The translations under genes and the position numbers were made by a program. Shown in pieces: positions 5,842 through 57,561 of a stretch of DNA of 64,000 nt. The stretch lies in NCBI GenBank assembly GCA_014871385.1, contig CM026428.1:15530476-15594475 (forward strand), in the 5' to 3' direction. The stretch is from Ceratodon purpureus. Lineage: Eukaryota; Streptophyta; Bryopsida; Pseudoditrichales; Ditrichaceae. How positions within the stretch are numbered: the stretch's first letter is position 1; every line of letters starts with the position of its first letter. The notes beneath the pieces were generated by a model. It saw nothing but the letters and a program-made list of their open reading frames with translations. It was not told the origin of the DNA and did no database searches.

Positions 5842-6527
5842 CTTTTTTTAATTCTTTCTAAAGCTAAATATTCAATCATCTTCAATTTCAAAAAATATGG
5901 CTTAATGAGGAAATTGATATATTCAAAGGTAAATGAATGGAAATTTCTCCAAAATGAATTTAAAAAAAAAAAATCTCAATACTCACCTTTCAAAAAATTA
6001 TAAGGTAGATAGAAGTATAAAATGATTTTAAAACCTAAATCACTAATGGGGAGGAGCACAATAAAGTGTACCAAAAAGTGCTTAGCTATTTGTCAGCTTC
6101 AGCCCTTTTGCAAAAATTGCACAAAAGTGATGGAAAGATGTTATCGAAGTCAATTGCTTTTGCTAATATAGATTCTCAACTTGTTTTTCACAATTTAGAA
6201 AAGTTTCGTACAAAGTAGACACTTTTAAGTTATTCTATGAGGGCTTCAAATCCAAGCAAATTGAATGCAATCATCTGTAAAAGTGGCTAGAAAAGAACAA
6301 AAACTATCTAAAAAACACTTTTGAAGGAGTAGTGCCCTCTATATGTTTAAGAGGTATTCTAAAATAGTCAATTCATATACTCAATAATTGGTTTAGGATT
6401 CTAAAAGTATTGCAAGGATGTTTTTAAAGAGGGTGACTTTTGCGGTACTTTCTATGAGTTTTTTTTCCACCGATTATTGTTTTTAAATTGGAAAAAACGT
6501 CCTCTAAAGACAATAGAAGGCAGCGAC
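3873..6527. other. AT-rich intergenic DNA, no gene seen
   Basis: No supported coding region. A run of about 34 T residues lies at 5803-5836, followed by more A/T-rich tracts. The rest is unremarkable up to the left terminal repeat at 6528. Confidence 0.5.
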
Positions 6528-6590
6528 GCTATCTTGTGAGCGGTGAGCGGTGAGCAGTGAGCGGTGAGCACTAAATTTTCAATTTTTTGG
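6528..6590 (+). repeat. Left terminal inverted repeat with five tandem heptamers
   Basis: The repeat begins GCTATCTT and then contains five consecutive 7-bp units of the form GTGAGCR at 6536-6570, followed by CTAAATTTTCAATTTTTTGG. The reverse complement is at 19087-19148. Tandem short units at transposon ends commonly bind the transposase, so these are candidate transposase sites; that role is inferred. Confidence 0.85.
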
Positions 6591-6834
6591 GGAAAAATTT
6601 GAATTTTATTTTTATTTTTTTGTATTTTTTTGAGAGCAATCAAACAATGGTGAGCAATTTAGGACACTTCGTTGGAATATATGAATGCAAATAAAGTAGA
6701 CCCTATAACCGTGGAATCAATCAAATGTGAATGGTTGGATGGGAAAGCTTACTGTTCAAGTCACATACAGAATGTATATCCAATTTTTTTTTAAACATTT
6801 TTTTATTGCATTTTTGTGGTTGCGGATACGAGAG

Positions 6835-6916
6835 AAGAATATTTCCAAGGCAAGAAGGAATATTCTCCTCTCGGATCCGAGAGGAGAATATTCCTTCTTG
6901 CCTTGGAAATATTCTT
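6835..6916. repeat. 82-bp perfect palindrome
   Basis: Two 41-base arms meet between 6875 and 6876 with no loop and no mismatch. The centre is TCTCGGATCCGAGA (6869-6882), a 14-mer that recurs three more times inside the same element. The arms include GGAATATTC and CCAAGGCAAG. Such a palindrome can extrude as a cruciform or form a hairpin in RNA. It lies between the left terminal repeat and the transposase stop codon. Confidence 0.9.
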
Positions 6917-7101
6917 TTTTTGCTTTCATTTTACCACAAACACATTCGACAGGTGGACAATATATAAATAAATAGTGACCTTTATTTATGTTTTGCGGAT
7001 TCCAAATCCATCACAAAGCCAAAACAAATCAAATCCGCTATTCATATGATGTATTCTTGAACTATATTGGTCACTCAATTTTGTAGTCTAATCATAAGAA
7101 A

Positions 7102-10100
7102 CTATTGAAGCGGTTCAGCAACTTTGGCCATCTCCAGAACACGCATAACTTCGTTGAAGCTGAAGCTAGGGGCGTGCATAAAAGTATCAACCTTGTAATC
7201 CATCTCACATAGATAGCGGAAGATATAATAAACATGCTTGCAGTACTTCCACTGTCCTCTTTTGCCAAGGGTTTCCGAAGTCATTTTCATGAAGTCGGGG
7301 CAAGTACATCCAGGGAAGTCCGTCATGGTGATACAATATATCGTTTCACTTGGACTCTTCAAGGAGATGACGCAGCCAAATCCTGGATATGGAATCGATG
7401 TGACACTTGTAATCCAATAGTTGTTCATGAGACCCGCGCTGCTCCACTTGTTGCGGTGGTCGGAGGTAGGAGCGTCAGAACTTCTCCTGATGGCATATCC
7501 GTTTCGAGTCGTCGGGTGTGTATCCGGATCAACAGGAACCGGGAAATGACTCCTTGGAAGCGGCATATTAGCAGAAACCTGGAACTGACGACGAGGTGAT
7601 AGTACTCCACGTTGTTGGAGTTGGAAGCCGGCCTCTTCAAGAGCCAAAATCTCTTTGATGGTCAAGTTCGTGCCCCTTTTCACAGGCCAAGTCTGCGGGA
7701 TAGATGGCCAATCGATCACAAACGACTTCTTCGTGCCCTTCACACATCTATTAATGTCATCGGCGCAAAACCAGAAGTCAGTAGAAATCTGGCGATCGGT
7801 TCTGAACTCCTTCTTCAGCCCTACATAGGTAGGAGCAGGCGTACCATGCGTACTTCGGCGCACTCGGGTATCGCACTTCTCATTCGTATGAGCCTGCATT
7901 GCTTGGCATTTTCGGTTAGACTTGCCGGATAGTCTGGCAATGTGCCACTTAGAGGGGTCGCAATCTGTCTCCTGCACTGAAGTAGTGTGTTCAACACCGG
8001 AGTCAGGTTGAGAAAGAGCCTCCTCAATGCGTGCTCTGGTGGATCTCGTGCCATCACGAGGAATGGAATAATTCACAGTATCATAGCGATGCGAGTCATG
8101 ACTAGAACCAAGCGGCAAATCTAACTTCCGTTTCGTAGATCCAAAGATCTCTGCACCTTCCAAGCCTCCTTTCTTCGTCAGTAAATCCTCGGCTCCCGGG
8201 TAGGAATTGACTGCCTCAACAATCAACTTGGGGTCACCAGAGCGTTGAGCGTGGCGTAAACGAAGTTCTGCTCTGTCCGGACCTTTACCGCCCTTTCCTC
8301 CCTTCAGCCAAGACCGGTAACTTGTGATCTGCATGAATGCTCGGATCATATCATCCACTGTTGCCTCGTACAAACAGGTCATTGTATTTCCTGATTGTTG
8401 AAGCCATCTGTTATGCACGGTTTCCGCAAGGTTGCAGGAAGGCATGTCGGCTCTCTCGTCAAGGGTAAGATCCTGGGAAATACAATAAAATAAGTAATGT
8501 CATTTTCAGGATTATAGATAAAAAACAAGCTTTACTAATACTTGATGGAAGGTTTAGAGATGAATGAACTTACAAGCTGCATCGAGCCTCCCCATTGTCT
8601 ATACCGATAGTGCCAGAAAACCATCCAATCATTTAGATGACGCCTTCCTTCTTCAGTTGTAGCCCCTGACGAAAGCCACCACCCACGGATGACGTTGTAC
8701 TGCGCTTCTGCTTCCTCCTGGGTCTTTGCGTCCTTCCATACTTTGCACAAAGCTTTGTGTTGGTCTTGAAAGCTTGGCAAGATATTCCGAGAAGTAGCCC
8801 TCTGAAGGCACTTTGTCCAGTGGAAAAGACAAGTGCGCTCTCGTTCTTCCATAGGATCATTGGGATCTCCGTTCCCATACACCTTCCGAACAGCGTGCCA
8901 GTTGGCTCCAGCATTGTCAGCCATGAATCCTTTGAAATTTGTATTATCAAGCCCATTCTTCCGCATAACTTCATTGAGTTGGAGCCAAAATAACTCCTGA
9001 GCAGCAGCATCTTCGGATTGCATGTCACAAAGGGCAATTGTCATAACTTTACAATACTTACTGTCATAAACGTGGCATGCCATAGTGGTCCAGTCAGCTA
9101 CACGCCTAACATGGTCGAACATGATCCAGCAGTCTTGAAGATCACCTCCAGGCTGCATGCGCTTCACCAAATCCACACCGCTTCCTGGACGATCAGTGGA
9201 CATCTTGAACAGAAACACCTTGCCTTCATTCTGTCCAGGGAACTGATTACGGTGGATGAAATCAAAGTTGGAGTAATCCTTCAGCTCTAGGATGCTATCT
9301 GTGACTCCTCTCCCTTGACGGAAAAACCTCTTCGATCCAGAAACAAAATTCCGTATATTCGGTGAAGAAAGAGTCTCAAATTGGTCCATTACAGCATCTA
9401 TAGATGCTCCCCGAAGATGACTGCCTCCTGCAGTAGGACGGATCAGAGCATCGGCAAGGTACTGCTTGCTGGCCGCTAGAACGATAGCAGAGTTTTTGAC
9501 GTTAGGTGTCCTCTGAACCTCCTTAGCTATGCAGTCAAACATGATATCCATAGAATCTTGACATCTGCCTTGAGATACAGGATGTCTATGACGTCCTAAA
9601 TGAATTGCCGCACGGGTCATATTATTGTCTGGAGACGACACATGATAGATCCTAGCCTCGCACAATGCTAGACAAGTAGGAGGTGTCTGACATACTTTGC
9701 ATGCTAAAGTAGATTTTTCTGTGGGGGAGCCTCCCACAGAGAAAGGTACTAAAGCTACGCCTGACCATTCAGTGCTATTTACCATCCCATTATTCCTGCA
9801 GATGTAATCACAACTCATGTTGGGACATTGTAAGTGTCCGGTACATGATGACTTACGATATGTGAGGCCATATTCGTTCTTGATGTTTGTGGTCATGGTC
9901 TTGCACCAGGTGTGGCCATCATACTGCTTGCTCATCCCGTCCATTCCACCTCCGAATGGATTAGGAACTCCTTCTGGTACAGGGGGCAGCTCAAAAATCT
10001 TGTCTCCATCGTAAACTGGCGGTAAATACTTCACTTGTTCGTGTTCAATAGTGTCAAAATCAATCTTTGATAATTCTGATCGGGAGCCCCTTCTTGATGC

Positions 10101-10553
10101 TGTCATTCTGATGGAAAACATAATGCTTCTGTTTTTTTTGGAAGCAGGGTGAATAGGTGGACGCCCTGTAGACAATGACGCAGACATACTAGAACGACTA
10201 CCCTGTCGAGATGGACGACCTGAGTCTTCGGATCCACGACTCTGAAATGGATTTGACCTAGTGTCTCCTAGCTGTATCTCACTATGAGTGTCATCATCCG
10301 AGTCACTCAACAAATGTACTGAGTTGTCACTGGGTTCAATTTTGACAGATGCTAGACCAGGAACTTGAACTGTTGACGTGGAAGGAGGAGGGGTCAAAAG
10401 AACAGTAGACTCAGACATCTGTGCATCTGTTAAGCCATAAACCTTGAAAGTTCCAGTGCTAAGAGTCCAGACGTAACCATCGGGTGTACTATCCTTCACT
10501 TGAAATACACACTCAAGAATCTCACCATTATCATCAAAGACCTCTTCTTCCAC
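7102..10553 (-). CDS. MULE-type transposase with zinc-binding and SWIM domains
   Basis: This gene encodes a Mutator-like DDE transposase that would cut and join the element ends in the nucleus. Two exons, 10553-8574 and 8472-7102, are joined across a 101-bp phase-0 intron with GTAAGT and CCCAG borders, giving about 1116 residues. The order is: an acidic and Ser/Arg-rich N-terminus; a Cys/His-rich region at about 217-324 (CTGHLQC, CKVC, HLGRHRHP) like WRKY/GCM1-type DNA-binding domains of MULEs; a catalytic core with D480 (IMFDHVRR), D546 (FMADNAG) and E677 (NLAETVHNRW), plus CLFHW between; and a SWIM zinc finger CxC...CxH at 1049-1073. The open frame begins at a GTG, so the true start probably lies upstream (see 10596-10679). 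No internal stop or frameshift interrupts it. The D-D-E assignment is by motif reading. Confidence 0.82.
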
Positions 10554-10595
10554 GTAAATAGTCCCAGCTCTAAACCCAAACCTCAGGCTAAGTTA

Positions 10596-10679
10596 TCACT
10601 CCTCCACAACTACCTTATTGTCTGGACCTACAGACATCACAAATGGAATACCTCCATCATGAGACCGAAGAGAGGCCAT
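10596..10679 (-). other. Candidate 5' coding exon of the MULE transposase
   Basis: Upstream of the GTG-opened transposase frame, an ATG at 10679-10677 opens 27 codons (starting MASLRSHDGG, ending VVVEE) before a TGA. Its composition looks coding and it lies only 43 bp from the main frame, but in another frame. An unrecognised small intron or a frameshift could link the two; I found no splice pair with matching phase. Alternatively it is a leader peptide or chance. Confidence 0.35.
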
Positions 10680-11887
10680 CCTAAGCGTACTATAGAAGAT
10701 GGAAGAAGTACAATCATGCATTGCAGTCAGGTTTTCTGAGAGGACTGAAAGAAGGTGGCTTGTGTCTAAAGGACGTTCCAGGGATTATATAGTTCTCAGT
10801 GGACAGTGCATCGTGCTAACTTAGCTGTACTTTAAATAAATTTAGTCCTCTATCATAAAGACAATTACCTGTATAGCTCAATTTTAGTTAGAACATATCT
10901 GACATACTAGAGTGTTTAGGCGGCTGAGACCGCCATCCATGATATGCTCAGCTAATACAATTATAACAATTAGCCGTCATTTTAGTCTCTGTGGTATGGC
11001 CTTTAATTTGAATTCGATTATATTTGAAAATGGTTGGCTTATATCTAACAATTTATAGAGAACACAGGTCATGCAAACCAATCTACTGGAGATTTTAAAT
11101 ACAAACGTTAGAGTATGCCATACTGTACTAGATAGGTATAGGGCGTTCATTAAAAGATCAATCTTTGGAAATCCAAAAGACTACTAATATTATACTTAAT
11201 TTAAATCGTGACGTAGTCAGTTACAGTTAGCAGTGACGATGTATACATTAAAAGGATGGGAGGTCCCGAGAAACAGAGCCAGTTAAATGACGTAGAACTA
11301 AACACTTCTCCATTTTATGACAATCTCTCTTGTTAGTTGTATGTTCACGAGAGTGCGCTAGTGAGACACATGAGGGACGGAGAAGAACTGAGTGCAAGAG
11401 TGCCTAGGGCTCCTAGATCATGTTTGTCTAGAGGTAGAGGGAGGAGGCGAGGTTCTCATTTCAGTAATCCCAAGCAGATTAAGGCTCAGAAGAGAAGAAA
11501 GGAAAAAGAGACTAATAGCTTGATTGCAGACGTGGATTGCAATTCAGACGGAATCAAATATCTCAGGATCAAAGCTCTAGGGGCCATCTCTGAGGTTTGC
11601 CTCTTGTAAATCTAGCTCAGTATTGCTCTAATCATTTTGTACGTTAATTTTTCATACGTGTTTTTTGTTTATGGTATAGCAAATACAAGTGGTCCATCCC
11701 TAGACCACAAAAATTCACGTACACTTCTAGGCCTCCCCTCATATTACTTCCAGTATGGTCCAAGCCGTACATGATGGTCAAATTAACAGGCAGTCACTAA
11801 TTGTGCGGATGAGCGGTTCCAGTTCTGGATGCGTACGAACCTAGTTTCGGCCGTTGACCTTCTACTGTCTGCTCGAGCTGCTTGCAG
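10680..11887. promoter_or_regulatory. Central divergent spacer of the element
   Basis: This 1.2-kb interval separates the leftward transposase and the rightward ParB-like/methyltransferase gene, so promoters for both probably lie here. It is mostly AT-rich. One short plus-strand frame from an ATG at about 11370 to 11609 encodes about 80 residues with an Arg/Lys-rich stretch (RGRGRRRGS, KAQKRRKEKE), which could be a nuclear-localised peptide or a chance frame. No box was recognised with confidence. Confidence 0.35.
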
Positions 11888-12525
11888 GTCTCCTCCCTCG
11901 TCGATGCTCACGGCGACAAGCTCTCTGTCGGGCCAAAACTCTCACCCGCAGAGCATTCCTCGCACCCACATGAACATGTAAGTAACAATTTCCATTCCGA
12001 ACTTCCTCTTTAAAGTTCTCTCTCCTTTCAACTCCCGCTGGGTTTAGGTTGAGAAGCATATTGATGCTGTCATTTGGTTGAACCCTAGATTCAATTAAGC
12101 ATTGATAGATTCGGACCGCAGGTGAGTGGTGTGGAAGGAGCAGACCGCGAGCCTCTTCGGCACTTCAAAGACCCTGCAGTTGTACTCACGGTTCCTTCTC
12201 TAGGGTTCTCATCAGGGTCGTCTGAAGTCCCCGTCGTCGGAGAGGTGAGTGCTCTCTTAACTCCTAAATCTGATTGATCAATTGGGTCAGGTTGATTCCG
12301 TTGAAGCCGTGTGTAGATGCCCCGTTAATATGGAATTAAATTGCTCAATATCCTGCTCTGTGTCTATGCGGTACCCTGAATGCCGTAAAGGTGGTAGCGC
12401 AGGAGAGCGCTGTGGAAGGATCACAGGGCGAGGCTCTTCAGCCCTTCGAAGAAGCTGCGGAAGTATTCACGGCACCTTCGCGAGGATTCTCCCCAGTGAC
12501 ATCTGAACTCCCTTTCATCGGAGAG
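11888..12525 (+). other. Putative upstream exons of the ParB-like/methyltransferase gene, two of them duplicated
   Basis: Three phase-0 blocks with good splice borders precede the ATG at 12803. They are 11888-11977 (30 codons, after TTGCAG, before GTAAGT), 12122-12244 (41 codons, after CGCAG, before GTGAGT) and 12403-12525 (41 codons, after GCAG, before GTGAGT). The last two are homologous: both carry (S)xVEGxxxEPL/EAL, then VxTxPSxGFS, then SE(V/L)P and end in GE. All can be spliced in frame to the exon that begins exactly at the ATG at 12803 after CGCAG. The true start codon would then lie further upstream and was not found. They might instead be spliced untranslated exons, but the conserved reading frame between copies favours coding. 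Confidence 0.5.
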
Positions 12526-12802
12526 GTGAGTGCTCTCTTCGCCCTAAATCTGATTGATATGTTTTGTCATTTCCATTTTGCATAAATAAATTGGAGCTCT
12601 GTGTATGTGCCGCAAAGCAGGTTGACCGAAGATTTAGAACGGGAATTAGATACAATTTATTAAATGTTAGCAATATTCTGCCGAAGGTAATTCAACATGT
12701 CGGGGTTGACTTGTGCATAATTCAGCAGTATGTTCCTTGTTATTGTGGGATGTTTTTTAGCTGAATTGAAGGTTAAGCCTATGACCTGTTCCTCATTCGC
12801 AG

Positions 12803-15800
12803 ATGAGCCGTGAAGAACAGCTAGACGAGGTGCACAGCCAGCCTTGCACCATGGATCTGGAGGACGGGGGCTTGGCCGAGATTGAGGAGCAACTGAGGCA
12901 AGCTGTGATAGGCAATTCACATGTCGCTTTACAAAGCGCGCTCGATATGCCAGGTATTGAGCTTGACGTTCCGCTCTGCAGGATGATTCCAATGAAGGAC
13001 GTCAGAGAGCCTTTGAAGAAGGATATTCATAAGCTAAAGGCCGAGTTCTCACGGGGATACAAGAGGGCGTCATCATGCTTTTACCTTTCGCTACGGAGTT
13101 ACAAGATGGAGGAATGTAGTGTTTCTGAAGCAGACAGAGCATCATGGTCAGAGCTTTGGCAGAAGCAGGATGAAGAATTTGAGAGTAGATTGTCGGAAAA
13201 TCCAGCTTTCCAGAAGTACTCCAACAAATACTTCTACGTGTGGGATGGAAATCATCGCCACATTGCTTGGTCAGAGATTATCAACACCATTCGGAAGCAT
13301 GATTCCTCATTTCATGTTGCTGTTCGATCGGTTATTATCAATGTAACTCCTGCAAACTGCAATATGCTTTTGCACGCCATGACCGACTGGAATAAGTAAG
13401 TATTATACATCATCATTTTATAGATATGGCTTTATTTTAATTTGTGAGATATCAATTCTGATTGAGCGCTCTGACCCATGCTTGAGATCTGCTAGCTCGA
13501 TGCAGACAGTGGACTTATTGTCCTTTTTTTCCTTAATTCAATTAAATCTTTTCATGTGCAAGACTGCCGAGAGCTCACTGCTTCGGTACTGTTAGTCTGT
13601 TAGCTGCCCGCTTGGTGCAGGCACTGGACTTATTTTTTTATTTCAGCTAATATGATTATTTCTGTCAGCGGATCTTTAAGAAGGCTCTGTATCTCATGTC
13701 AGTGAGCAGGTCGTGAAACTTGCACAGAGCTCCCTCTAGTGGAGCTTCTGTAAGTGTTTACAATTTATTTATATAAGTACTTAGCATGAGCACCCCCGGT
13801 CCAGACTTTGAACCCCGAATGTATAGATATTATATGATATGCCATGTTTATTTGTGTGACATCAGTTCCGCCATTTCATCAATTTCTTCATTAGAATGTT
13901 TGAGTACTTTTTTTTCTAACAAGAATGTCACTGTGATTGCATCTTGTCCAACGCACAATTGATACAGAAAAAATCAAGTGGACCACGTTGAGCAGCATTG
14001 GACGCACGAGGTGAAGCGTGTCCAACAACTTGGTTTGTTAGATTTCGACCAACTCAAGGGTCTTGTGAGAGACGAGGATTTACAAGCTAGCATACTCGAG
14101 AGGGCACGGACAAAAAACAGGAAATGGTTTCACCTCACGAATGATGCATTCATCAACTTTCTATACGAGGTAAGATACTCCTACTATAAATCATTCATTT
14201 GTTTAAGAATCCTCCACTTTAATAACTAACATTTCATTTTGGTTATGAAAGAGGGAGATTTCAGCGGCCCAGGAGGAGGCTATTCGAGGCTACAAAGACA
14301 CACTCATAACAGGCACTGGAGAAGATAGGCCAGGAAGTGCATCTGAACTGAAGGCCATAGCTGCTAAGGCAGTAAACGCAAAGAAGACTTCGCTAAATTC
14401 CTTGTTGGATCGGTTTATTGCTATAGCAAACCCGAGCAATGGAGAAAGTTTTTTAAAAGAAGTACGTCAACTCTTGATCCTTTTGTTTTTTTGAATACCT
14501 GACTCCTCCATTCCGAGGCTCAGAGTTTGCACATGTTTGAGGAAAAAGTGTTTTCCGAGGACACCTCTCGTCCACCTCTCGGATCCGAGAGGTGCCTCGG
14601 CCCTTGCTTGTGACTTCACTTTTTTTGGTTCATGTGGTCCAGCTTGATGCTTGTTTGATTTTGTATGTCCATGTTCTCATGCAGTCTGAGTTTGTGTCAA
14701 GGGGCTTACACCATGAGCATCACTGCCGAGAGCTCATTGCTTCGGACAGTTACCTGCGACCTTGACACAAGCAGTGGGCTGCTTGCAGTTTGTTATTAAT
14801 TTTTTCAATTAATTATTTTATTCTCATGTGCATGGATGCCGAGAGCTGAGCATCGGTACTGCTCTTGCCTGCTTACCTTGACGCAGGCAGTGGGCTTAGT
14901 GCTTTATTTTTTATTTTGTGAAATCTCTTTGTGTGAAGGAGCCGGGGCTCTTGGGGAACTTGAGGAATTTTTCAGAATATTCCGGTCTCGGATCCGAGAG
15001 GAGGATCTGGGAATGATTCAATTTTTGATGCTTTTTTTTTTGAACATTTGACGCCTCCATTTCGAGGCTCAGAGTTTGCACATGTTTGAGGAAAAAGTGT
15101 TTTCCGAGGACACCTCTCGTCCACCTCTCGGATCCGAGAGGTGCCTCGGCCCTTGCTTGTGACTTCACTTTTTTTGGTTCATGTGGTCCAGCTTGATGCT
15201 TGTTTGATTTTGTATGTCCATGTTCTCATGCAGTCTGAGTTTGTGTCAAGGGGCTTACACCATGAGCATCACTGCCGAGAGCTCATTGCTTCGGACAGTT
15301 ACCTGCGACCTTGACACAGGCAGTGGGCTGCTTGCAGTTTGTTATTAATTTTTTCAATTAATTATTTTATTCTCATGTGCATGGATGCCGAGAGCTGAGC
15401 ATCGGTACTGCTCTTGCCTGCTTACCTTGACGCAGGCAGTGGGCTCCTTGCATTTTTTTTATTTTTTTTTAATTATTTATTTTATTCTCATGTGCATGGA
15501 TGCCGAGAGCTGAGCATCGGTAGTGTTCGGTACCTGCTCTATGCAGGGTGAGAGTGCCTTGCAATTTTGTTTATTGAGGTCATGCGTTGCATCTCTATAT
15601 GGATGAATGAGTCATCACTATTCAATATGTAGTTGATTGAGTTTTAAAGTCATACTAATCTATGTTTCTGACATAATATTACTTGTAATCTTATTTTGCA
15701 GATCATTCGCCACTTTGACATTTTTCAAACAGAAGCAGAGATGACCCCTGAGAAACTGCAGCTCATTGCCTCTGCGAAGGTGAGTGCGAAGCATAGGGAG

Positions 15801-18360
15801 AGGTGGTTGAAGTGGTGGAACATGAGCAAGGAGAGTCGGCAGGAGTACAACTTTCCTCCAAAACCAGCTTCTGATTTAGCTCTCAGGCCTTGGGTGGATC
15901 AGGCTGCCTTCTGGGCTGGGGTAAGTTTTTGAATCCATAGTTCTTGCACTTCTTATCAAAGTTGTTGCTTATTAGAATTCTACAAAATTCCGGTTCATAA
16001 AAAAGGTTCTGTATTCTTATGTGATTTGTAAGTGATTGTCTTTGCAGTTGGAGGAGGAGGCAGTCATTCGTTATGCCAAGATTGTAGAGGAGGATATCAT
16101 AGTTTTGAGGACAGAGGATTTACCTAATCCTGTAGATGATATTGGCTCATGGATTGAGGCTCATTCCATCACTTTGTGGGGCAAGGCCTTTAAGCATTTT
16201 TTCCCTGAGGCTGGAACTTTTACCAAGAAAGAGCCATTTCTCCACCAGGCTGGTGCTGAAAATGCAATGAAGCGGGCTATCTTGAGGTATTTTTGGAGGG
16301 AGTTGGTTGTTAAGGGTGCCATTGACAAGAAGGATATTCCTCAACGGTTTAAGAAGTGGGTGGATGTTTCTACCAGTGAGTGCATTTTCACAGATTATCA
16401 GAGGAGGCATTTTGGAGCTCCTCATCTCCTTCAGTGTCCTTGGTACCTTGAGCTTAAGGAGAGTGATCAATGCCCGGGGGAAGAGAGAGGTCTTAAGGCA
16501 AGTTGTGAGAATTTGATGAGGCAGCTTGTGGATGAGAACATGGTGGGTTTGGAGGAGGATACCTCGCAGGTTGGTGATGATGCTGCTCTTTCTGAGAAAC
16601 AGAAGAAGAAGGTGGCTGAGAGGAAGGCAAAGACAGAGGCTAAGATGAAGGAGAAGGAAGACAAGAAGAAGGAGAAGGAGCAGGAAGCTAAGCTCAAGAA
16701 GGAAGTGGCAGCAAGGAACAGAGAATTGGCCAAGTTAGTTCTGAAGGAAGGGCCAGAGAAGTTGATGTCTCATGTTGGCATTTCTCCTTCAGGCAGTAGC
16801 ATGCAGGCTGCCATAGTTCCTGTAACTCCTCAGGTGCCTCTTTTCTCTACCCCCATGCCTTCTCAGACTATCTACACCATTCCATGCTCGCAGTTGGATT
16901 ATGTAGACACTAGTGTTGAGATCATCAATGACTCCCCTATGGGCATTTTGGAGCTGTTTACTTCTTTATCGGAGGGGGATGAGCCTGAGATTTGGAGCAA
17001 GATCAAGCATTGGATCGAGGGGAATCTCGGTAGCAAGGCTAGGAATTTTGGGGGTGAGGAGGCTGAGGCTGCTGTGGACCTCATCATTTTTGATGTTCCA
17101 GAGGATTTACCAGTTCCAGGTTTAGGGCAAGATGGTGAGATTCCCTCCTGGAACAAGCACCCCAGGATTCCAGCAGGGAAAAAAATGGAGTCTCCGTGGA
17201 TTAAGGCCCATTTTGAGTTTGCTATGCAGTTTCTCCAGGATGATGGAGCTTTGATTGTTTTTTACCCTGATTCAAAGTTCATTTCGAATGAGCTTATTTC
17301 CTGGGCAGAGTGGGCTAACTTTCAGGAGGAGGCCAAGTGGTTTGCAATCAATGGCCTGCCATTGACTATTCCAGACCGTTATCCACGCCAGCACAAGACT
17401 TTCATGGTCAAGTGCTTCATCAAGATGGAGAATGTGGAGGAGGGTGTTCCAAGGTCTAGGTTCCAGTTTCATGATAGGGCTGAGCTTGGAGCCCTAGGCA
17501 TCAAGCTCTCCACTGATGGACATTGCACTAATTTGATTACTGCAGATTCTCTCACATTTAATTCAGAGACTGGTGAGCCATTCAGAGGAGCACGGGAGAA
17601 GACTTCTAATCTCTTGCAGGCTCTAATCGATTTGTGCACGGTTGAGAATGACAATGTCATGGATCTCACAGCTTCTACAGGTATTAATTTGTTTTTTTTT
17701 TGTTTAAAAGTATTCTGTATTTCATTTTATAATTTTTACTTATGTTTTGGAACCCTAATTTCTGTGCAGGTGCCTCCATTCGAGCATCCAAGAGTCTCCG
17801 GCGTCATGTCATAGGCTTTGAGTCTGACACCACCTTGTACGATCAAGTGTTGTTTCCTCTTCTTCCAAGCACGGAGGAGGTTGAGTCTACTCCAATTCCT
17901 GTGCCTTCACCGAGGAAGAAACGTTCGGTTGAGTCAGACGATGAGCCTGAGAGGAAGACTGCCCCCAAGCGTTCTTGTAAGTAAGTCTTTACATTCATTT
18001 GTCATTTGTTTATTTTTTAAAAAAAATTTAACTCAGTATTTATTAAACTGTGAAATTGTCATGTGCAGTCGGAAGAAAGCGTTGAAGAATGACATTGGTG
18101 GCTCTATTATCTCGCGCCATCTTAGCAAGATAAGGAGTCCACTTAGACCTTTAGAGCTTCCTCATTATGCAGAGATGCAGGCTCAAGCTTACTTAGCTGC
18201 TCCTTCTCCATCTATTTCATCTGACAGAGATAGCATTTGTCGTGATGCTGAGATTTATCTTGACATAGCTGCAGAAGTTGCCAGAGTGGTATTATCTAGT
18301 GATAGCGATTCTTATGATGGTTGGATTGGTACTTGTAGTGATGACGAGATGTCTACTTGA
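12803..18360 (+). CDS. ParB-like domain fused to a beta-class DNA methyltransferase-like domain
   Basis: Seven exons (12803-13395, 13968-14169, 14252-14461, 15702-15920, 16048-17680, 17770-17980, 18069-18360) join in frame to about 1119 residues. Residues about 55-200 resemble the ParB/Srx fold; the hallmark is VWDGNHRHIAW (DGNHR at 148-152). A charged Lys/Glu coiled coil follows at about 591-640. The C-terminal part has the permuted order of beta-class N6-adenine/N4-cytosine methyltransferases: a motif-IV-like segment LIIFDVPED (DVPE at 757-760), then a motif-X-like REKTSNLLQALI and motif I MDLTASTG (947-953) with VIGFESD. Where active enzymes have DPPY-like residues this one has DVPE, so catalysis is uncertain. 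The tail is acidic. ParB-methylase fusions are known in phages and bacteria; here the gene is spliced and lies inside a transposon. The role, whether DNA binding, DNA marking or silencing defence, is inferred. Confidence 0.72.
13466..13637. repeat. Diverged copies of the GCCGAGAGCT intron repeat in intron 1
   Basis: Within the first intron of the methyltransferase gene, bases about 13466-13520 and 13555-13637 share the pattern ATGC..GAGATCT/GCCGAGAGCT, CTTCGGTACTG, GCTxGxTGCAGxCAxTGGACTTATT with the units in the big intron. They seem to be older members of the same intronic family. Confidence 0.5.
14491..15540. repeat. 549-bp tandem duplication and GCCGAGAGCT sub-repeats in an intron
   Basis: In the intron between exons 14252-14461 and 15702-15920, the block starting at about 14491 is repeated nearly base for base from about 15040 (offset 549). 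A sub-unit of about 70 bp with GTGCATGGATGCCGAGAGCT, GAGCATCGGTA and GCAGGCAGTGGGCT recurs at about 14827, 15376 and 15495. Each large copy contains the palindrome CACCTCTCGGATCCGAGAGGTG (14573-14594 and 15122-15143). A further TCTCGGATCCGAGA is at 14986-14999. The high identity means a recent duplication. Confidence 0.85.
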
Positions 18361-19086
18361 TCATTGCGTATTTACTCTATATTGTTATGTTTTCCCTACT
18401 TATATATTATATGATAGCTTTGGCTTTGGATTTTATATTTTGCCTTAACCTCACTTTACTCTACTTCTGCGTGAATTTCTTTACCGGCCATATATATTAC
18501 ATTCACTTCATACATGATTGAATTATAAAGATGGTATTTTTTTTTTCAGAAGTTGAACATTCCTTGATTACAGCTTGAAGACATCACAATTTCATGTGGT
18601 TTTCTTAAAACCTTTCTCATGTATTTTTCCCTTCCCTATTATGCAAATACCCCTATTAATTCCTTTTTATGTTTTATCTTTTATTTTAATTTTAATTTTT
18701 TTATTTTTCCAATGTTTTTCTTCTTTCGTTGTTTTATTTATTTTTCTTTCTTTTCTTCTTATTTTCCTTCATATTTAAATTTTTTCCCTTACATTCCTTT
18801 TCATTATTTATTTTTAATCTTTTTTCTTTCTTTCATTTATTTATTTTTTTCTCTTTTCTTTTTTGCCTTTTATTTAATTTTTTCCTCTTTCTCTTCATAG
18901 CGTGGAATTGATAGGGCATAAGAAAAGAAAATCACAATTTATTCAAGTATGAATTGGGTGTAAATTTCTACATTTATCAATTTAGAAGCCATTCTTTTTG
19001 GAATATACCCTAAAACACCTTCCACGGTCATAGGTCCCCTATATGCCATGTCATGCAAAATCATCTCAAAATATCAAATAAATAGT
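18361..19086. other. 3' region of the element with a pyrimidine-rich tract
   Basis: Downstream of the methyltransferase stop codon, 18640-18895 is almost entirely T and C. The plus-strand frames there are low-complexity Phe/Leu/Ser and not credible genes. The remainder is AT-rich. The transcript's 3' untranslated region and polyadenylation site probably fall here. Confidence 0.5.
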
Positions 19087-19148
19087 CCAAAAATTGAAAA
19101 TTTAGTGCTCACCGCTCACTGCTCACCGCTCACCGCTCACAAGATAGC
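19087..19148 (-). repeat. Right terminal inverted repeat with five tandem heptamers
   Basis: This is the reverse complement of 6528-6590: CCAAAAATTGAAAATTTAG, five YGCTCAC units at 19106-19140, then AAGATAGC. The only difference noted is one T/A in a homopolymer. It marks the right edge of the 12.6-kb element. Confidence 0.85.
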
Positions 19149-19489
19149 ATTCCTGTGATTTATCATGTTCACTAAAAAATCTTGTCAAAAAATGTTAAAA
19201 ATCCTAACAATGATAGCTTGCCTAATTATGTTGATATAAAATACAAAATATTGATCCAAGTGGTGAGAATGTTGGAGGAATCAGTTGTAATTTTTTTTTT
19301 AAAATTTTTTTTAACAAATGTTGTAACTGGGTTTCAAATGAAAATTCAACTCTTTTTTGGTTTGGAATTTTGGTAAGCACCCGCAAAACATGGCTTTTGT
19401 ATCATTGCTTAACTTCTGAGAATGCAATAAACCAAAGCTTCCTACATTCATGAAAACTTACATAATATTGTTCTATTCTTAAAGTCTTC
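19149..19489. other. Intergenic DNA, nothing recognised
   Basis: AT-rich sequence immediately outside the right terminal repeat. No gene, and no match to the bases outside the left terminal repeat that would form a target-site duplication. Confidence 0.5.
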
Positions 19490-46251: not shown

Positions 46252-48312
46252 CTACCCGTCATTGGTCTCGTCGTCCTCAACCTCTGCGGCCGCATCCTTT
46301 GCAATCGCCAACAGTTCCATGACAAGTTCGTCGTTGGAACTTGACAAGGTAAGTTCCCTTGGTGATTTCGTTCCGATCTGCGAACGGCACGGACTTTCAG
46401 ACAGGTTCGGCATGGCTTCATCATCGATGTCCCCTTGTATATCGCTGCTAGCGTCCGAACTGACTACACGCTTTGGAGAGACATCATAGGTTTCATATGG
46501 GCGCTCCACCTTGTCTACGGTAGTCTCCGAGAGCGTAAAGTCGGAAACTGCGTGGGCACGTTTGGAAGGTCCACGTACTGCTTCAACATTGCAATCTAGG
46601 GCAGTACGCTTCCGCACCTTCAGTCCAGCCTGAACTGCGGCTCCAGGCTTTGCAATCTGCCTGACCAAGTCCTGTGCCTCCTTACGAGAGAGCGGTGGTG
46701 CACATCCCTCCGCGGACATGCATGCACGCCATGCTTCGATACTTGCCTGCATAGTTGCATCATTCGAAACAAGGCCCCACTGCCCCATCCAAACCCCGCT
46801 TGGAACCTCATCACAACAAGGACATTTTGGATTTCTACCGAACACAATCTTGAACATGCAACAAGGATGAAATAAGCAACCGCATGGGAGATTGACCAGA
46901 GCCATGTCTGCCCAAAAGCGGCCGCACATCCCACAGGGGAGGTCTCCTTTGAGTCTTCTCATTCCTGTCGGTGCAACAGGGAAAGACGAGAAGAATTGCT
47001 GTGGGCGAACACAGCTCTCTTCTATAATAATGACATCGACTTGGCGCTCTATGTCTTGAAGTAAATTAAACAAGGTACGAACCTGCTCACCTAACGACTT
47101 TACTCTCTCGCTCTTTTCTACCAGTGCCGCCCGGTTCTCCTCAACAGCTGCGCTAGCCTTACCGCATGCGGATGATACAGCTCGCACCTCGTTCTGCGCC
47201 GCAACTCTTGCGGAAGCATCACAACCAACGCCTTTTTTAGCTGATTGTAGCATGGCGAACTTGTCCCAAAGCTCCTCCTCTGCCCTCACGAGCGTCTGTC
47301 CATGCACCTGCTCGTCCTTAAGCTCCAGCTGCCTCCGCTCCAGCTCAACGGTCAGTTTGTCGTGCTCCGCCTGAACATGTGATTTTCTGCGTAGTAAACC
47401 TGAGACCTTCGATCCCTCTCCGTGCTGACTTGATCCCTTTGAGACCTTCGATCCCTCTCCGTGCTGACCTGATCCGTTTGCTTTCATGGATCTGCGCTGG
47501 CGTGGTGTGGTAACCTGCGTCACTGGAACGTCGACATATGCTGCGGCCGGAACCATGCTCAGTTGCTGCCGTGGAGCTTGCTGAGAATGAAGAACTCCCG
47601 ACAATGCGTGATCTATATGAGCCTCTGGGTCCACGCTGACTTTAGCGGCCTGCAGCTGCCGAATCGCTGTCGCATGGGCCAACTGCAAACGACCAACAAG
47701 ATGCTGAAAAAAATCTAACAAAGCTTGGATTTGTTCCCGTATGCAGGGCGGCGTCATCTTCTGCGTGGAGTGGCGCATTGATGTCTTCATACGGTGTGAA
47801 GCCAACTCCGCAGCCCCCTCAGCCCAATTCACCTTAAGGTCCCGCGATTCAAGTTCCACTCCACGCAGGAACGCAGTCCCATACTCACCATTATCTGGAC
47901 CACATCCACCATGCACCTTCTGATGCATGCGTTGTATCTTCCAAATGTCAAGTACATTCTCCATCAGTCGCATGGGGTGACGGTTCCCGGTTCGATTCAG
48001 CGGATACTTGCGAGATAGCTCCAGCGTGGTGAGCCCGTGGTCGTTCTTGAGCTTACGAAACGGAATTCCTTCGTTACAGAGCCCTCCAACTTCTGCAAAA
48101 AAAGAACAGGTATACTCAGCCTGCTCGCTACCCATGAGGAATGGTGCACGGCGTGTCATTGCTTTACGCATCGCCGGGAGGAAATGGTCAATGCTGAAGG
48201 CCTCTCTCCAAACAGTCAGGTCCGTTGCAAGTAGCTCTGGATTCTCTCCGTCGCCGCCTGAGTCAACAGGAGAACCACGATGCGAAGCAGGTCTCACTTT
48301 AACACGCGCCAT
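46252..48312 (-). CDS. Coiled-coil protein with a RING-like zinc finger (paralogue 1)
   Basis: A single intronless frame of 686 residues starts at the ATG 48312-48310. RING-type proteins are often E3 ubiquitin ligases; activity here is not shown. In order: an N-terminal domain with AEYTCSFFAEVGGLC (about 65-80) and KVNWAEGAAEL; a Ser/Gly linker with two tandem copies of a 13-residue unit (QHGEGSKVS; DNA repeat of 39 bp at about 47396-47475); a coiled coil at about 315-430; and a C4HC3-like finger at about 460-500 (LPCGMCGRFW, LPCGCLFHPC, KCPCC). The tail is acidic and Ser-rich. It shares architecture and the SFFxxVxGLC signature with the gene at 55810. It is sandwiched between two copies of the DDE-like gene's 3' end. 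Probably a transposon-associated accessory gene; partner unknown. Confidence 0.7.
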   Translation of the reverse strand: MARVKVRPASHRGSPVDSGGDGENPELLATDLTVWREAFSIDHFLPAMRKAMTRRAPFLMGSEQAEYTCSFFAEVGGLCNEGIPFRKLKNDHGLTTLELSRKYPLNRTGNRHPMRLMENVLDIWKIQRMHQKVHGGCGPDNGEYGTAFLRGVELESRDLKVNWAEGAAELASHRMKTSMRHSTQKMTPPCIREQIQALLDFFQHLVGRLQLAHATAIRQLQAAKVSVDPEAHIDHALSGVLHSQQAPRQQLSMVPAAAYVDVPVTQVTTPRQRRSMKANGSGQHGEGSKVSKGSSQHGEGSKVSGLLRRKSHVQAEHDKLTVELERRQLELKDEQVHGQTLVRAEEELWDKFAMLQSAKKGVGCDASARVAAQNEVRAVSSACGKASAAVEENRAALVEKSERVKSLGEQVRTLFNLLQDIERQVDVIIIEESCVRPQQFFSSFPVAPTGMRRLKGDLPCGMCGRFWADMALVNLPCGCLFHPCCMFKIVFGRNPKCPCCDEVPSGVWMGQWGLVSNDATMQASIEAWRACMSAEGCAPPLSRKEAQDLVRQIAKPGAAVQAGLKVRKRTALDCNVEAVRGPSKRAHAVSDFTLSETTVDKVERPYETYDVSPKRVVSSDASSDIQGDIDDEAMPNLSESPCRSQIGTKSPRELTLSSSNDELVMELLAIAKDAAAEVEDDETNDG

Positions 48313-48881
48313 GTCAGGAAAAGAGCGCACTGGTTAGGAAGAGGAGAATGTGTATAGGGTCAATAGATAGAATGTTGAAGCAACTGAAGACTACTGAAGA
48401 CTACAGTAGCAAGAAGTGCAACGGAGTTGGCTGCCTAAGCAAGATAAGCTTCAAGCCTGCTTTGGGAGGTAAGTGCGACGCCGTGGTGATGTTTGCTGCA
48501 GTCCACTTCTTGGTTACTGCCTTTGGTTGCAAACATGATTTGATTGAAACACTTCGTTTACGGCAACTGTACATGGTACTAGTGTAGTTATATTTTAAGG
48601 AATTGACTTGCTGAATTCTGTATGGCGCGAGGATTTAACGGTGGATACTCTGAAGTCAAAGGGTAAGCATCGCCGGCTTTAGCCGCCACGCATTCTCGTA
48701 AGTTAGTTAGTGGGGATGTTGTATAGGACGAATTGAGAGAACCTTTATAATTTTGTATTTGAAACCACATGTCGGGAAACTAGAACTACCAATGAGATGG
48801 AATCCGAGGTCGCAGTTGTACATTAGAGGGACATCGGCGGGCCGACTTGTTTAAGTGTACACAGCATTGTAAAATGATGAA
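48313..48881. other. Upstream region of RING-like paralogue 1
   Basis: No separate gene; short frames lack motifs. Promoter and 5' leader of the minus-strand gene probably lie here, but no box was identified. Confidence 0.45.
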
Positions 48882-49174: not shown

Positions 49175-50915
49175 TTTTTAGGACAGTAGTTTAATGAAAT
49201 AATATGAATTCCTTTGTTTCCAAGTCAACGGCCTTCCGGTACCCATGTCTGAGCTATTAACGTTGAATAGAGCTAATTGAGGAGCTATATCTCGCACAGT
49301 GATTAAGGTGGAATTAGTTCTTATCCAAGTTCTACTGAAACTCGATTTTTCATTCATCTATTTTTCATCCACCCATCAATGATAACATATGAATGTTTCC
49401 TTTAAAATTCAAGAATCACAAAAACTGTTTTGACCCTTGCAATGCTACAGCGTCCTATGGTTTAGATGCTTCAAATTGGATTGAGTTCTATGCAACCCAA
49501 TTAAGGAGGGATTAATTCTCATTCATGTTTCATTGAAACTTCAATTTTCAGTCATCTGGTTTTCATCCATCCACAAATGATGCACGTGGACTTCAATGTT
49601 TCCTTCAAATTTCAGCAATTACAAAAACTGTTTTAACACTTGCCATGCTTCAGTGTTTTTTTTTTTTTTTTTCTAGTTCTTCTAATTGGATTGAGTTCTG
49701 TGCAAACCGATTGAAGGAAGGATTTGTTCTGATTCATGTTTCACATAACTTCATTTGTCATTCTTTTGTTTTACCTCCATCCATAAAAGAAAAGGTCACT
49801 GTTATGTTTCTTACAAATTTCGTAATAAGGGACTCCCGTTCTCACCCTTGCCATGCTTCAATGCCTTTTTCTTTTATTTGGTTCTAATTGGGGAGCTATA
49901 TCTCGCACAGTGATTAAGGAGGAATTAGTTCGTATTCATGTTCAACTCAAACTCCAATTTCCATTCATCTATTTTTCATCCACCCTTAAAAGATAACATA
50001 TAAATGTTTCCTTCAAATTTCAGTAATTACGAAAACTGTTTTGACCGAGCCTCCATGCTTCAATGCTTTATTTTTTATTTTTATTTGGTTCAAATTGGGT
50101 TCAGTTCCATTCATACTGAATAGGGGTGTGTTCTTTCTTATTCATATTTCACCGAATCTGGCTTCTTCCGAATGTTTCCTTCAAATTTCAGCAATTACAA
50201 AAACTGTTTTAACACTTGCCATGCTTCAGTGTTTTTTTTTTTTTTTTTTTCAAGATCTTCTAATTGGATTGAGTTCTATGGAAACCGATTCAAGAAGGAT
50301 TAGTTCTCATTCATGTTTCATTGAAACTTCAATTTTCAGTCATCTAGTTTTCATCCATCCACAAATGATGCACGTGGACTTCAATGTTTCCGAGGAAATT
50401 TCAGCAATTATGAAAATCCTTTTGACCCTTGCCATGCTTCAGTGTTTTTTTATTTTTTCTTAGTTCTTCTTTTTGGATTGAGTTCTATGGAAACCGATTC
50501 AAGAAGGATTAGTTTTCATTCATGTTTCATTGAAACTTCAATTTTCAGTCATCTAGTTTTCATCCATCCACAAATGATGCACGTGCACTTCAATGTTCCC
50601 TTCAAATTTCAGCAATTACAAAAACTGTTTTAACACTTGGCATGCTTTAGTGTTTTTTTTTTTTTCTAGTTCTTCTAATTGGATTGAGTTCTGTGCAAAC
50701 CGATTGAAGGAAGGAATTGTTCTGATTCATGTTTCATTGAAACTTCAATTTTCAGTCATCTGGTTTTCATCCATCCACAAATGATGCACGTGGACTTCAA
50801 TGTTTCCTTCAAATTTCAGCAATTAGAAAAAGCTCTTTTGACACTTGCCGTGCTTCAATGTTTTTTTTCTTTTTTTTTCCCATAAAGAAGAAAAAACAAA
50901 AAAAATGATATTTTG

Positions 50916-51050
50916 GCACTCCAACTGTGCACTAGAAAGCGTGGTGGGGTGGGTGTCGGAGGGTGGATTCGAACCCGGCACCAGCACCCTGGGGCTGCCA
51001 CGACAGTTCGAACCCGAAGCCTCGGATCACCAAGCCACCAAGGCTTTGAC
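50916..51050 (-). repeat. tRNA-like/SINE-like unit 1
   Basis: Read on the minus strand this 135-bp unit has TGGCTTGGTGAT, a weak A-box match, and GGTTCGAATCC, an exact B-box consensus, with a second GGTTCGAAC between. RNA polymerase III internal promoters have this pair. The unit is followed by A/T-rich sequence. Seven copies exist in the window. No full tRNA cloverleaf was derived. Confidence 0.5.
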
Positions 51051-52836
51051 GAAGAAAATGTTCATCATGAGCATATATATATGGAACCTGAGTTCCTAAA
51101 AATTGATAAAAAAAATAAAAAATTAGCATCTCCATGAAGCAAGTTCTTGAATTTGTTATTTTCGGTGTCGACGGCTTTTAACCAGTCACTTTTTTGATTA
51201 TGTGCACCGCTACTTGAACATGCTTCAGTGGTGTTATGCTTTCTTGTGTTTATGCTTGACCCAGGCTTCTTTGTTGTATGCTTAGGCAAGGAACAATACT
51301 ACTATAGCATTCAAGTGGGGCTAAAACTCTAGTTTAATTCTGTAATTATGAAACGTCCCTCAAGTACCCCTGAACATCGACATCTTAAATACAAGTTAAC
51401 TGAAATAATCAATCGAATTTTTTTGGCTTAGTCCGGGATGCACAGTATCTGAGGGTCAAGATTAGTTCAGTTTGATGACAATCTGAAACCTGGTTTTCCA
51501 TTTTAATGTTTCATCATCCTTGCCATGCTTCAGCGTCCAATGGTTTAGATGCTTCAAATTGGATTGAGTTCTATGGAAACCGATTCAAGAAGGATTAGTT
51601 TTCATTCATGTTTCATTGAAACTTCATTTTTCAGTCATCTGGTCATCATCCATCCACAAATGATGCACGTGGACTTCAATGTTTCCTTCAAATTTCAGCA
51701 ATTATGAAAATCCTTTTGACCCTTGCCATGCTTCAGTGGTTTTTTTTTTTTTTTTTCTAGTTGTTCTAATTGGATTGAGTTCTATGGATACCGATTCAAG
51801 AAGGATTAGTTTTCATTCATGTTTCATTGAAACTTCAATTTTCAATCATCTAATTTTCATCCATCCACAAATGATGCACGTGGACTTCAATGTTTCCTTC
51901 AAATTTCAGCAATTATGAAAATTCTTTTGACCCTTGCCATGCTTCAGTGTTTTTTTTTTCTTTTCTAGTTCTTCTAATTGGATTGAGTTCTATGGATACC
52001 GATTAAGGAAGGATTAGTTTTCATTCATGTTTCATTGAAATTTCAATTTTCAGTCATCTAATTTTCATCCATCCACAAATGATGCACGTGGACTTCAATG
52101 TTTCCTTCAAATTTCAGCAAGTATGAAAATTCTTTTGACCCTTGCCATGCTTCAGTGTTTTTTTTTTCTTTTCTAGTTCTTCTAATTGGATTGAGTTCTA
52201 TGGAAACCGATTCAAGAAGGATTAGTTTTCATTCATGTTTCATTGAAACTTCAATTTTCAGTCATCTGGTTTTCATCCATCCACAAATGATGCACCTGGA
52301 CTTCAATGTTTCCGAGGAAATTTCAGCAATTATGAAAATCCTTTTGACCCTTGCCATGCTTCAGTGTTTTTTTTTTTTTCTTAGTTCTTCTTTTTGGATT
52401 GAGTTCTATGGAAACCGATTCAAGAAGGATTAGTTTTCATTCATGTTTCATTGAAACTTCAATTTTCAGTCATCTAGTTTTCATCCATCCACAAATGATG
52501 CACGTGCACTTCAATGTTCCCTTCAAATTTCAGCAATTACAAAAACTGTTTTAACACTTGGCATGCTTTAGTGTTTTTTTTTTTTTCTAGTTCTTCTAAT
52601 TGGATTGAGTTCTGTGCAAACCGATTGAAGGAAGGAATTGTTCTGATTCATGTTTCATTGAAACTTCAATTTTCAGTCATCTGGTTTTCATCCATCCACA
52701 AATGATGCACGTGGACTTCAATGTTTCCTTCAAATTTCAGCAATTAGAAAAAGCTCTTTTGACACTTGCCGTGCTTCAATGTTTTTTTTCTTTTTTTTTC
52801 CCATAAAGAAGAAAAAACAAAAAAAATGATATTTTG

Positions 52837-52971
52837 GCACTCCAACTGTGCACTAGAAAGCGTGGTGGGGTGGGTGTCGGAGGGTGGATTCGAACCCGGC
52901 ACCAGCACCCTGGGGCTGCCACGACAGTTCGAACCCGAAGCCTCGGATCACCAAGCCACCAAGGCTTTGAC
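52837..52971 (-). repeat. tRNA-like/SINE-like unit 2
   Basis: Identical or nearly so to unit 1, as part of the 1921-bp duplication. Confidence 0.5.
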
Positions 52972-54753: not shown

Positions 54754-54888
54754 GCACTCCAAATGTGCACTAGAAAGCGTGGTGGGGTGGGTGTCGGAGG
54801 GTGGATTCGAACCCGGCACCAGCACCCTGGGGCTGCCACGACAGTTCGAAACCGAAGCCTCGGATCACCAAGCCACCAAGGCTTTGAC
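54754..54888 (-). repeat. tRNA-like/SINE-like unit 3
   Basis: Same unit with a few changes (CTCCAAATGTGCAC; GTTCGAAACCG instead of GTTCGAACCCG). It is adjacent to unit 4. Confidence 0.5.
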
Positions 54889-54976
54889 GAAGAGGACGTT
54901 TATCATGAGCGTATATATATGGAACCTGAGTTCCTTAAAATTGAAAAAAAAAGAAAAAAGAAAAATTTTAAATATG

Positions 54977-55111
54977 GCACTACAACTGTGCACGAGAAAG
55001 CGTGGTGGGGTGGGTGTCGGAGGGTGGATTCGAACCCGGCACCAGCACCCTGGGGCTGCCACGACAGTACGAACCCGAAGCCTCGGATCACCAAGCCACC
55101 AAGGCTTTGAC
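54977..55111 (-). repeat. tRNA-like/SINE-like unit 4
   Basis: Same unit, about 90 bp to the right of unit 3, so two units lie in tandem at the inner end of the left arm. The right arm has the mirror pair at 57704 and 57927. Confidence 0.5.
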
Positions 55112-55253
55112 GAGGAGGGTGTTCATCATGAGCATACTTATATGGAACCTGAGTTCCTAAAAATTGAAAAAAAAAGAAAAATGGGAAATTTAAAATCTGG
55201 TGGCTTCATGAAAGTGGACACCATGCGTAAGCAACCGAAGCAAGGCAAATTGA

Positions 55254-57255: not shown

Positions 57256-57561
57256 ACTTCCGCACACGCAACCTGATCTGCTCTGTTCCACAAACTCTAG
57301 GACAAGTTTTCTATAAACACTCTTGATGTGCACTCACTTCTGAACTTCACATTTGCTTGTAAATGTTGCTTCGACCGTTGGTTTCCGTCGCTTGAACTTA
57401 TTGAAGCCACATTTTGAAAACCACGGTTGTTGCATTCTGAACTTCCAGTTATCGTACCCTTAATGTGTTTAAAAACCATCTGGATTTCACTACTTTTGTA
57501 TTCCAAGTTTATATGTTAATAGACATCGATGTTTACAAGATGAAATATGCTTCATATTTTC
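57256..57561. other. 3' flank of RING-like paralogue 2
   Basis: Non-repetitive, AT-richer sequence between the stop codon and the start of the right arm. No gene seen. Confidence 0.5.

Follow-up and report, generated by a model that had tools for sequence, protein, structure and literature searches.

Several described systems bear on a transposon found in the moss Ceratodon purpureus, in a stretch of 64,000 nucleotides (nt) of contig CM026428.1 (assembly GCA_014871385.1, positions 15,530,476 to 15,594,475), which as a whole is hereafter called the window. In the brown alga Ectocarpus a protein with a ParB-like and a methyltransferase region is encoded by the Sola1 transposon Sola1-1_Ec32, and green- and red-algal cases are cited along with it in the accessible part of the report (PMC12477816). 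Transposon proteins that unite the two regions are already on record in algae and are, by this domain pair, the closest relatives of the moss protein. In Arabidopsis, as the accessible parts of the reports describe it, VANC21 binds a short motif in tandem repeats that are located in the introns of VANC21 and VANB21 and upstream of VANA21 (PMC5735166), and VANC binds motifs of its own element and removes silencing (PMC5735166, PMC10398659).

The moss transposon encodes two divergent genes, a transposase-like gene on the minus strand and a ten-exon accessory gene on the plus strand. It occurs in many copies with defined ends and 10-bp target duplications; the arrangement of the transposase and the ParB-like exon is fixed across six families; the methyltransferase exon of the window's family is under selection, the copies are mosaics, and a noncoding palindrome, CTCGGATCCGAG, is enriched and partly arranged in tandem arrays. 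We lean towards reading it as a two-gene DNA transposon with Mutator-like anatomy whose accessory protein would recognize the element's own DNA in the manner of VANC. The ParB-like part, or the region after it, would bind the palindrome, and the bound palindrome would mark the DNA as self, as happens with VANC at VANDAL motifs and with ParB at parS. The methyltransferase-derived half would probably serve as a cofactor- or DNA-binding effector rather than as a normal DNA methyltransferase, and would keep the element expressed against host silencing. We put forward more tentatively, as possible rather than probable, that a prokaryote-type ParB-like and methyltransferase protein was turned into a modular self-recognition system that binds parS-like arrays, has lost catalysis and belongs to a linked protein and site cassette that is swapped between elements.

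The ends of the element are as follows (the whole transposon has no strand).

6521-19155: whole transposon with corrected ends, from the inverted repeats and the termini of other copies
6521-6607, plus strand: left terminal inverted repeat with GTGAGCG 7-bp tandem repeats, from the inverted-repeat arms and genome matches
19069-19155, minus strand: right terminal inverted repeat, from the inverted-repeat arms and genome matches

The two arms are 87 nt long and 86% complementary. In the initial annotation, 62-bp repeats bracketed two divergent genes; both genes are present and the 62-bp repeats lie inside the 87-nt arms, but the true ends are 7 bp further out. The termini at 6521 and 19155 were set by other copies, which place the boundary at CAGCGAC followed by GCTATC on the left and at GATAGC followed by ATTCCTG on the right; ten other copies end in CAGCGAC on the left and in ATTCCTG or ATTCCCG on the right. 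Of 12 copies examined (the window copy, the C10 copy and ten others), 11 have an exact 10-bp target duplication directly outside the ends, a length within the 8-11 bp that had been predicted for further copies and that the accessible text of a published account gives for Mutator-like elements (MULEs; PMC6446971). The sole exception is the window copy, which has no duplication at 6521/19155. Its transposase contains two adjacent stop codons near the N-terminus (about 10593-10598), where relatives read through. Because of these stop codons and the missing duplication, the window copy has probably been damaged or has recombined, in a family whose insertions are otherwise clean.

The genome searched comprised 362,488,568 bases in 151 contigs, the window being C8:15530476-15594475. 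The left 173 bp of the element yielded at least 40 near-full-length matches at 93-100% identity, the window's own counted (the best 40 of 520 first-look candidates), and the right 189 bp at least 40 matches at 97-100% (the best 40 of 502 candidates). Exon 8 of the accessory gene was matched at least 80 times at 83-100% identity, again with the window's own counted (the best 80 of 3826 candidates), each match covering at least 466 of 544 residues, and the transposase exon at least 67 times at 91-100% (the best 67 of 2688 candidates). Among the 67 listed transposase copies, an exon-8 match was found downstream, in fixed orientation and within 40 kb, for 51, and a divergent ParB-like exon at a distance of 2-12 kb for 62; for 65 at least one of the two is present in fixed orientation. 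The prediction that several copies would carry the same gene pair is borne out by these 65 copies. Neither gene was among the matches listed for 6 of 40 listed left ends, and 13 of 40 listed right ends had no exon 8 within 15 kb among the matches listed, a ParB-like exon being near two of these. Such ends may be deletion derivatives or may follow from the use of the best matches only. Ends that never contain the gene had been named as evidence against its belonging to the element; ends with no listed gene nearby occur in the numbers given. One transposase copy, at C1:9160725-9162704, lies in an open frame of 1231 amino acids (aa), most of those listed being about 750, and is perhaps intron-less or read through. 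Several copies are located on C6, which at 110.5 Mb compares with 29 Mb for the next-largest contig seen, a size that we take to fit a moss sex chromosome.

The accessory gene extends over 11904-18360 on the plus strand and, spliced by hand, consists of ten exons that encode 1230 aa with no internal stops.

11904-11977, plus strand: predicted exon 1, tentative
12109-12244, plus strand: predicted exon 2, tentative, resembling exon 3
12403-12525, plus strand: predicted exon 3, tentative
12803-13395, plus strand: exon 4, the ParB-like region, with DGNHR at 13244-13258
13968-14169, plus strand: exon 5
14252-14461, plus strand: exon 6
15702-15920, plus strand: exon 7
16048-17680, plus strand: exon 8, with DVPE in the motif IV position at 17092-17103 and the start of motif I at 17662
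17770-17980, plus strand: exon 9, which completes motif I (DLTASTGAS) and continues with GFESD
18069-18360, plus strand: exon 10 with the stop codon

Exons 2 and 3 (12109-12525) contain stretches of about 40-45 aa that are similar by eye, probably an exon duplication. At five splice sites around exons 8-10 the dinucleotides were AG/GT throughout 30 loci including the window, apart from one GC donor (L024). Exon 8 was fetched from 30 loci, the window's own among them, and L019 was left out for its length; in the remaining 29 loci (406 pairs) the median number of nonsynonymous substitutions per site (dN) is 0.0246, that of synonymous substitutions (dS) 0.145, and dN/dS 0.17. In the 22 loci without stops dN/dS is 0.18. 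The accessory gene is under purifying selection, and together with the 65 transposase copies and the five diverged families described below this upholds the view that the methyltransferase-like gene is a stable component of the element.

Homology of the accessory protein to methyltransferases is supported by several profile searches. Residues 903-1088 match PF01555 (N6_N4_Mtase) with an E-value of 8.6e-6 and 26.3 bits, just below the cut-off of 26.7, which is reached by two element copies with 27.3 and 26.7 bits; two hand-spliced relatives with DQPF (L062) and DQPY (L059) in motif IV score 37 and 38 bits. The PHROGs collection contains phage methyltransferase families that match (best E-value 4.9e-7), NCBIfam gave only a weak CcrM match (0.006), and among solved structures exon 8 with part of exon 9 weakly matches DpnA (E-value 0.14). 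The catalytic motif IV of beta-class N6/N4 methyltransferases is (D/N/S)PP(Y/F/W), with DPPY in active enzymes. In the window's family it reads DV[PRL][EQ] in 30 of 30 exon-8 loci, a form that lacks the second proline and the aromatic residue, and DVPE is also found in the B and C2 classes and in L100, a contig from another organism. The C2-class gene retains DVPEDLPVPG at 65% identity and a dS of 2.2, and the altered motif, kept over such a distance together with the DLPVP that follows, speaks more for a new function under selection than for decay.

An active DNA methyltransferase that marks the element by N6-methyladenine (6mA) or N4-methylcytosine (4mC), possibly at the GATC contained in the palindrome, with the host or the transposase reading the mark as permitted, would agree with the PF01555 match, with the higher scores of the DQPF and DQPY relatives and with the self-modification that has been proposed for algal relatives in the accessible part of the report (PMC12477816). 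We consider it unlikely for the window's family on account of the altered motif IV, which recurs in other classes and in another organism, and of a motif I that reads DLTASTG. What the initial annotation had suggested, a methyltransferase acting on the element's own DNA, holds with respect to homology; self-methylation is doubtful because the catalytic motif is altered in every examined locus of the window's family.

The preferred reading, in which the methyltransferase-derived half is an effector of a self-recognition protein, gains a modular aspect from the mosaic structure of the copies. From the left end as far as 10912 the DNA of the C10 copy is 94% identical to that of the window; further right the value is 62-66%, in mainly coding stretches, as far as the right inverted repeat.

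10905-10920, no strand: mosaic breakpoint, where the 94% identity to the C10 copy ends at 10912

Identity to the B copy falls near 10.6-11 kb and climbs again within exon 8 near 16.7 kb. In dS relative to the window, determined with one copy per class for the transposase, and with saturation meaning a value beyond the Jukes-Cantor range, the C10 copy shows 0.13 in the transposase, saturation in the ParB-like exon and 2.2 in exon 8; the B copy 0.11, saturation and 0.39; the C copy 0.44, saturation and 0.17; and the A copy 0.11, 0.47 and 0.13. Divergence in the A, B and C classes is greatest in the ParB-like cassette; in C2 it is alike for both halves. Wherever dS could be measured against the window, dN/dS was 0.07-0.23. 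Positive selection as the source of the ParB divergence was rejected, with dN/dS at 0.10-0.18 where dS was measurable. The saturated or nearly saturated synonymous sites in B, C and C2 suggest that old lineages exchanged parts, and recombination or gene conversion between such lineages would explain the mosaics. The C10 mosaic is flanked by a 10-bp duplication of its own and so moved as a unit.

The palindrome CTCGGATCCGAG occurs four times in the window, every time in a noncoding part of the element, the expected number being 0.00 (none of the sites has a strand).

6870-6881: left subterminal palindrome, at the centre of an 82-bp perfect palindrome (6835-6916)
14578-14589: palindrome in intron 6
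14987-14998: palindrome in intron 6
15127-15138: palindrome in intron 6

Its 14-bp form TCTCGGATCCGAGA is present 1160 times in the genome (362 Mb) versus 0 times for the reversed control. Of these, 50 were listed, all on C1, and 27 of the 50 have a listed element feature at a distance of up to 10 kb as compared with 1.55% of random positions. The left subterminal site recurs at the corresponding position in all eight left-end loci (L001-L008, L001 being the window). In all 30 exon-8 loci the upstream 1.5 kb contain 1-5 palindromes, and exon 8 itself and its 1.5-kb 3' flank are free of them. In intron 6, the C10 copy has ten palindromes at about 126 bp and the B copy has five at 393 bp; C10 has another close to its left end. 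Three perfect palindromes are found in the E copy, and in one F copy (L074) TTCGGATCCGAA occurs ten times, for the most part at 150 bp. An accessory gene accompanied by tandem motif arrays in noncoding parts, which is the anatomy of the VANC elements, is found in some copies, and others have 1-3 sites. Site and protein also co-vary: the variant CCTCGGATCCGAGG is present in 11 loci, which are matched to listed ParB exons of 62-68% identity (in L015 the exon is about 20 kb off), and the remaining 19 of the 30 exon-8 loci have a TCTCGG arm, the second arm being changed in some.

The palindromes might instead be binding sites of the transposase or hairpin sites, the accessory protein aiding transposition in a mudrB-like way and recognizing no self. 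The position of the left palindrome about 350 bp from the left end in all eight left-end loci agrees with such a function, as do the perfect 82-bp palindrome, which could fold as a hairpin, and the placement of the left site in the transposase module outside the exchanged cassette. Yet the majority of sites in the examined copies lie well inside the element, in the accessory gene's intron 6 and in arrays of 5-10, and the 3' flank of exon 8, which reaches the right end in some copies only, has none in 30 loci. We judge this explanation to be rather improbable.

Five further families have the ParB-like exon in divergent arrangement beside a related transposase. Transposase identity to the window is 76/87% in D (L075), 62/69% in E (L073), 63/74% in F (L074), 42% in L076 and 36% in L077; that of the ParB-like exon is 57, 46, 44, 31 and 35%, respectively. 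The methyltransferase half is present beside L076 and L077 (L061 and L062). A search with the E-family transposase found at least 65 places; identity assigns 48 of the places listed to the E or F type, and 31 of these 48 have a ParB-like exon within 25 kb among the best 150 ParB-like exons listed. Motif IV in deeper families reads DQPY (L059), DQPF (L060, L062) or DIPE (L061), and some deeper families (L059-L062, L076, L077) may still be active enzymes.

A relative outside the moss was found with the ParB-like exons among genome contigs. L100, a contig of 4691 bp, is filed under a cyanobacterial (Synechococcales) metagenome-assembled genome (MAG). Its gene matches the accessory protein in pieces at 32-61%, the largest at 44.5%, and the pieces break at 309, 376, 446-447, 520 and 1133 as in the window gene; it encodes DVPEDLPVPG, and the contig has three CTCGGATCCGAG palindromes. 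The breaks suggest that the gene bears introns and hence is a eukaryotic contaminant, and the MAG that holds L100 is probably contaminated. Viral contigs searched with exon 8, the ParB-like exons and the transposase, and phages searched with exon 8, yielded no relatives. A match in Bacillota (L101) was discarded as a chance match, since its frames look by eye like ordinary bacterial genes.

Several observations weigh against the VANC-like interpretation. The ParB-like label proposed initially is borne by a GNHR..AW motif, picked out by eye and invariant in 10 of 10 aligned exons, but PF02195 (ParB) has no match anywhere in the genome at E-values up to 10, and the ten aligned exons matched no solved ParB structure. 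Of the 50 listed palindrome sites, 23, in 8 clusters, are not within 10 kb of a listed feature; four of the clusters were fetched, and of these one is a degraded copy of exon 8, another two match palindrome regions of the E family, and the last is an array for which there was a weak match only. With one mismatch allowed, no CTCGGATCCGAG was found in the fetched stretches of the D copy (L075; left end included) or in those of L059-L062, L076 and L077. The stretches fetched for D, E and F did not extend over the methyltransferase half, so the half was not seen there. Linkage alone could account for the co-variation of site and ParB class, because the intron-6 array lies within the exchanged cassette.

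That the methyltransferase gene is a host fragment captured and carried by chance, as in Pack-MULEs, was rejected as highly improbable: MULEs often pick up extra open reading frames (ORFs) and host fragments, according to the accessible text of the source (PMC6446971), but here a ten-exon gene is intact, under purifying selection and represented by at least 80 exon-8 matches over at least 466 of 544 residues, and the same arrangement is found again next to transposases that are 36-87% identical.

The name Mutator-like, as used here for the preferred reading, concerns the anatomy of the element.

8574-10553, minus strand: transposase-like gene, exon A, with D480 and D546 invariant in 6 aligned sequences and a C/H-rich N-terminal region
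7102-8472, minus strand: transposase-like gene, exon B, with NLAE and a CxC...CxH SWIM-like motif by eye, without a Pfam match

A Pfam search at E-values up to 10 gave nothing for the window transposase or the six aligned members, and Pfam SWIM did not match exon B. Canonical MULEs with PF10551 exist in the genome (150 places listed), and none of the listed element copies was seen among these places when compared by eye. An hhalign comparison with one MULE fragment from the same genome was no better than shuffled controls, a weak test with one 309-aa template and a 6-row profile; a search of solved structures gave no transposase match. On the side of the MULEs are the 10-bp duplication in 11 of 12 copies and the terminal inverted repeats with 87-nt arms; on the other side, no PF10551 match or detectable similarity to MULEs was found under the conditions given. 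The initial designation as a MULE transposase with D-D-E and SWIM motifs has behind it motifs picked out by eye, of which two D are invariant, and the duplication length, and finds no counterpart in the Pfam search or the canonical fragment. The label Mutator-like rests on the duplication, the inverted repeats, the two D, NLAE and CxC..CxH, and on these features membership in the MULEs is not established.

Elsewhere in the window, 50446-60849 consists of tandem repeats with units of about 208-223 bp, arranged as inverted arms (of up to 1235 nt at 100%) to either side of a RING-like ORF at 55810-57255 (zf-RING_2, E-value 0.0012, below the cut-off), and looks like another mobile element with repeat-array ends. 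A 692-aa ORF at 46252-48330 on the minus strand has a cysteine-rich motif that by eye resembles the RING-like ORF at 55810, with no Pfam match at 0.01.

A literature search, with most subscription journals outside its range, found no ParB-methyltransferase gene described for a MULE or for a moss. To our knowledge, detailed accounts of sequence-specific anti-silencing by a transposon protein exist only for a few elements of Arabidopsis. If the moss element acts like VANC through an unrelated protein, the strategy evolved more than once, and the palindrome CTCGGATCCGAG is a ready candidate binding site. The exchange of recognition cassettes among near-identical transposases, if true, shows how such systems switch targets. 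A methyltransferase fold that is selected despite an altered catalytic motif poses a direct biochemical question.

Compared with known systems, the moss element has a second gene, as has the Mutator-type element MuDR with its mudrB. It shares with bacterial ParB-parS the combination of clustered palindromes and a protein that has a ParB-like motif of the GNHR type, and differs from it by the lack of a PF02195 match, by the spliced eukaryotic gene and by the absence of any ParA seen in the element; the parS palindrome also differs in sequence from CTCGGATCCGAG. Likeness to VANC or to ParB-parS is at the level of anatomy, and membership among MULEs, ParB proteins or active methyltransferases is not established by it. 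Sola1-1_Ec32, compared by its description in the accessible text, is likewise a large DNA transposon in which a ParB-like and an N6/N4-type methyltransferase region are combined in a single protein, encoded on the strand opposite the transposase; the moss element is unlike it in its 10-bp duplication, in a transposase that its motifs would not class as Sola, in the altered catalytic motif, in cassette exchange and in its palindrome arrays. VANC is not known to have a ParB-like or methyltransferase domain. The motif of the moss element differs from those of the VANDAL elements in that it is a GC-rich palindrome whose core is kept across several families, and anti-silencing, known from VANC, would be a presumed function in the moss element. 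With these Arabidopsis MULEs, as far as the accessible reports describe them, it has in common an accessory protein and family-specific tandem motifs that are intronic and upstream and whose repeat number varies between copies.

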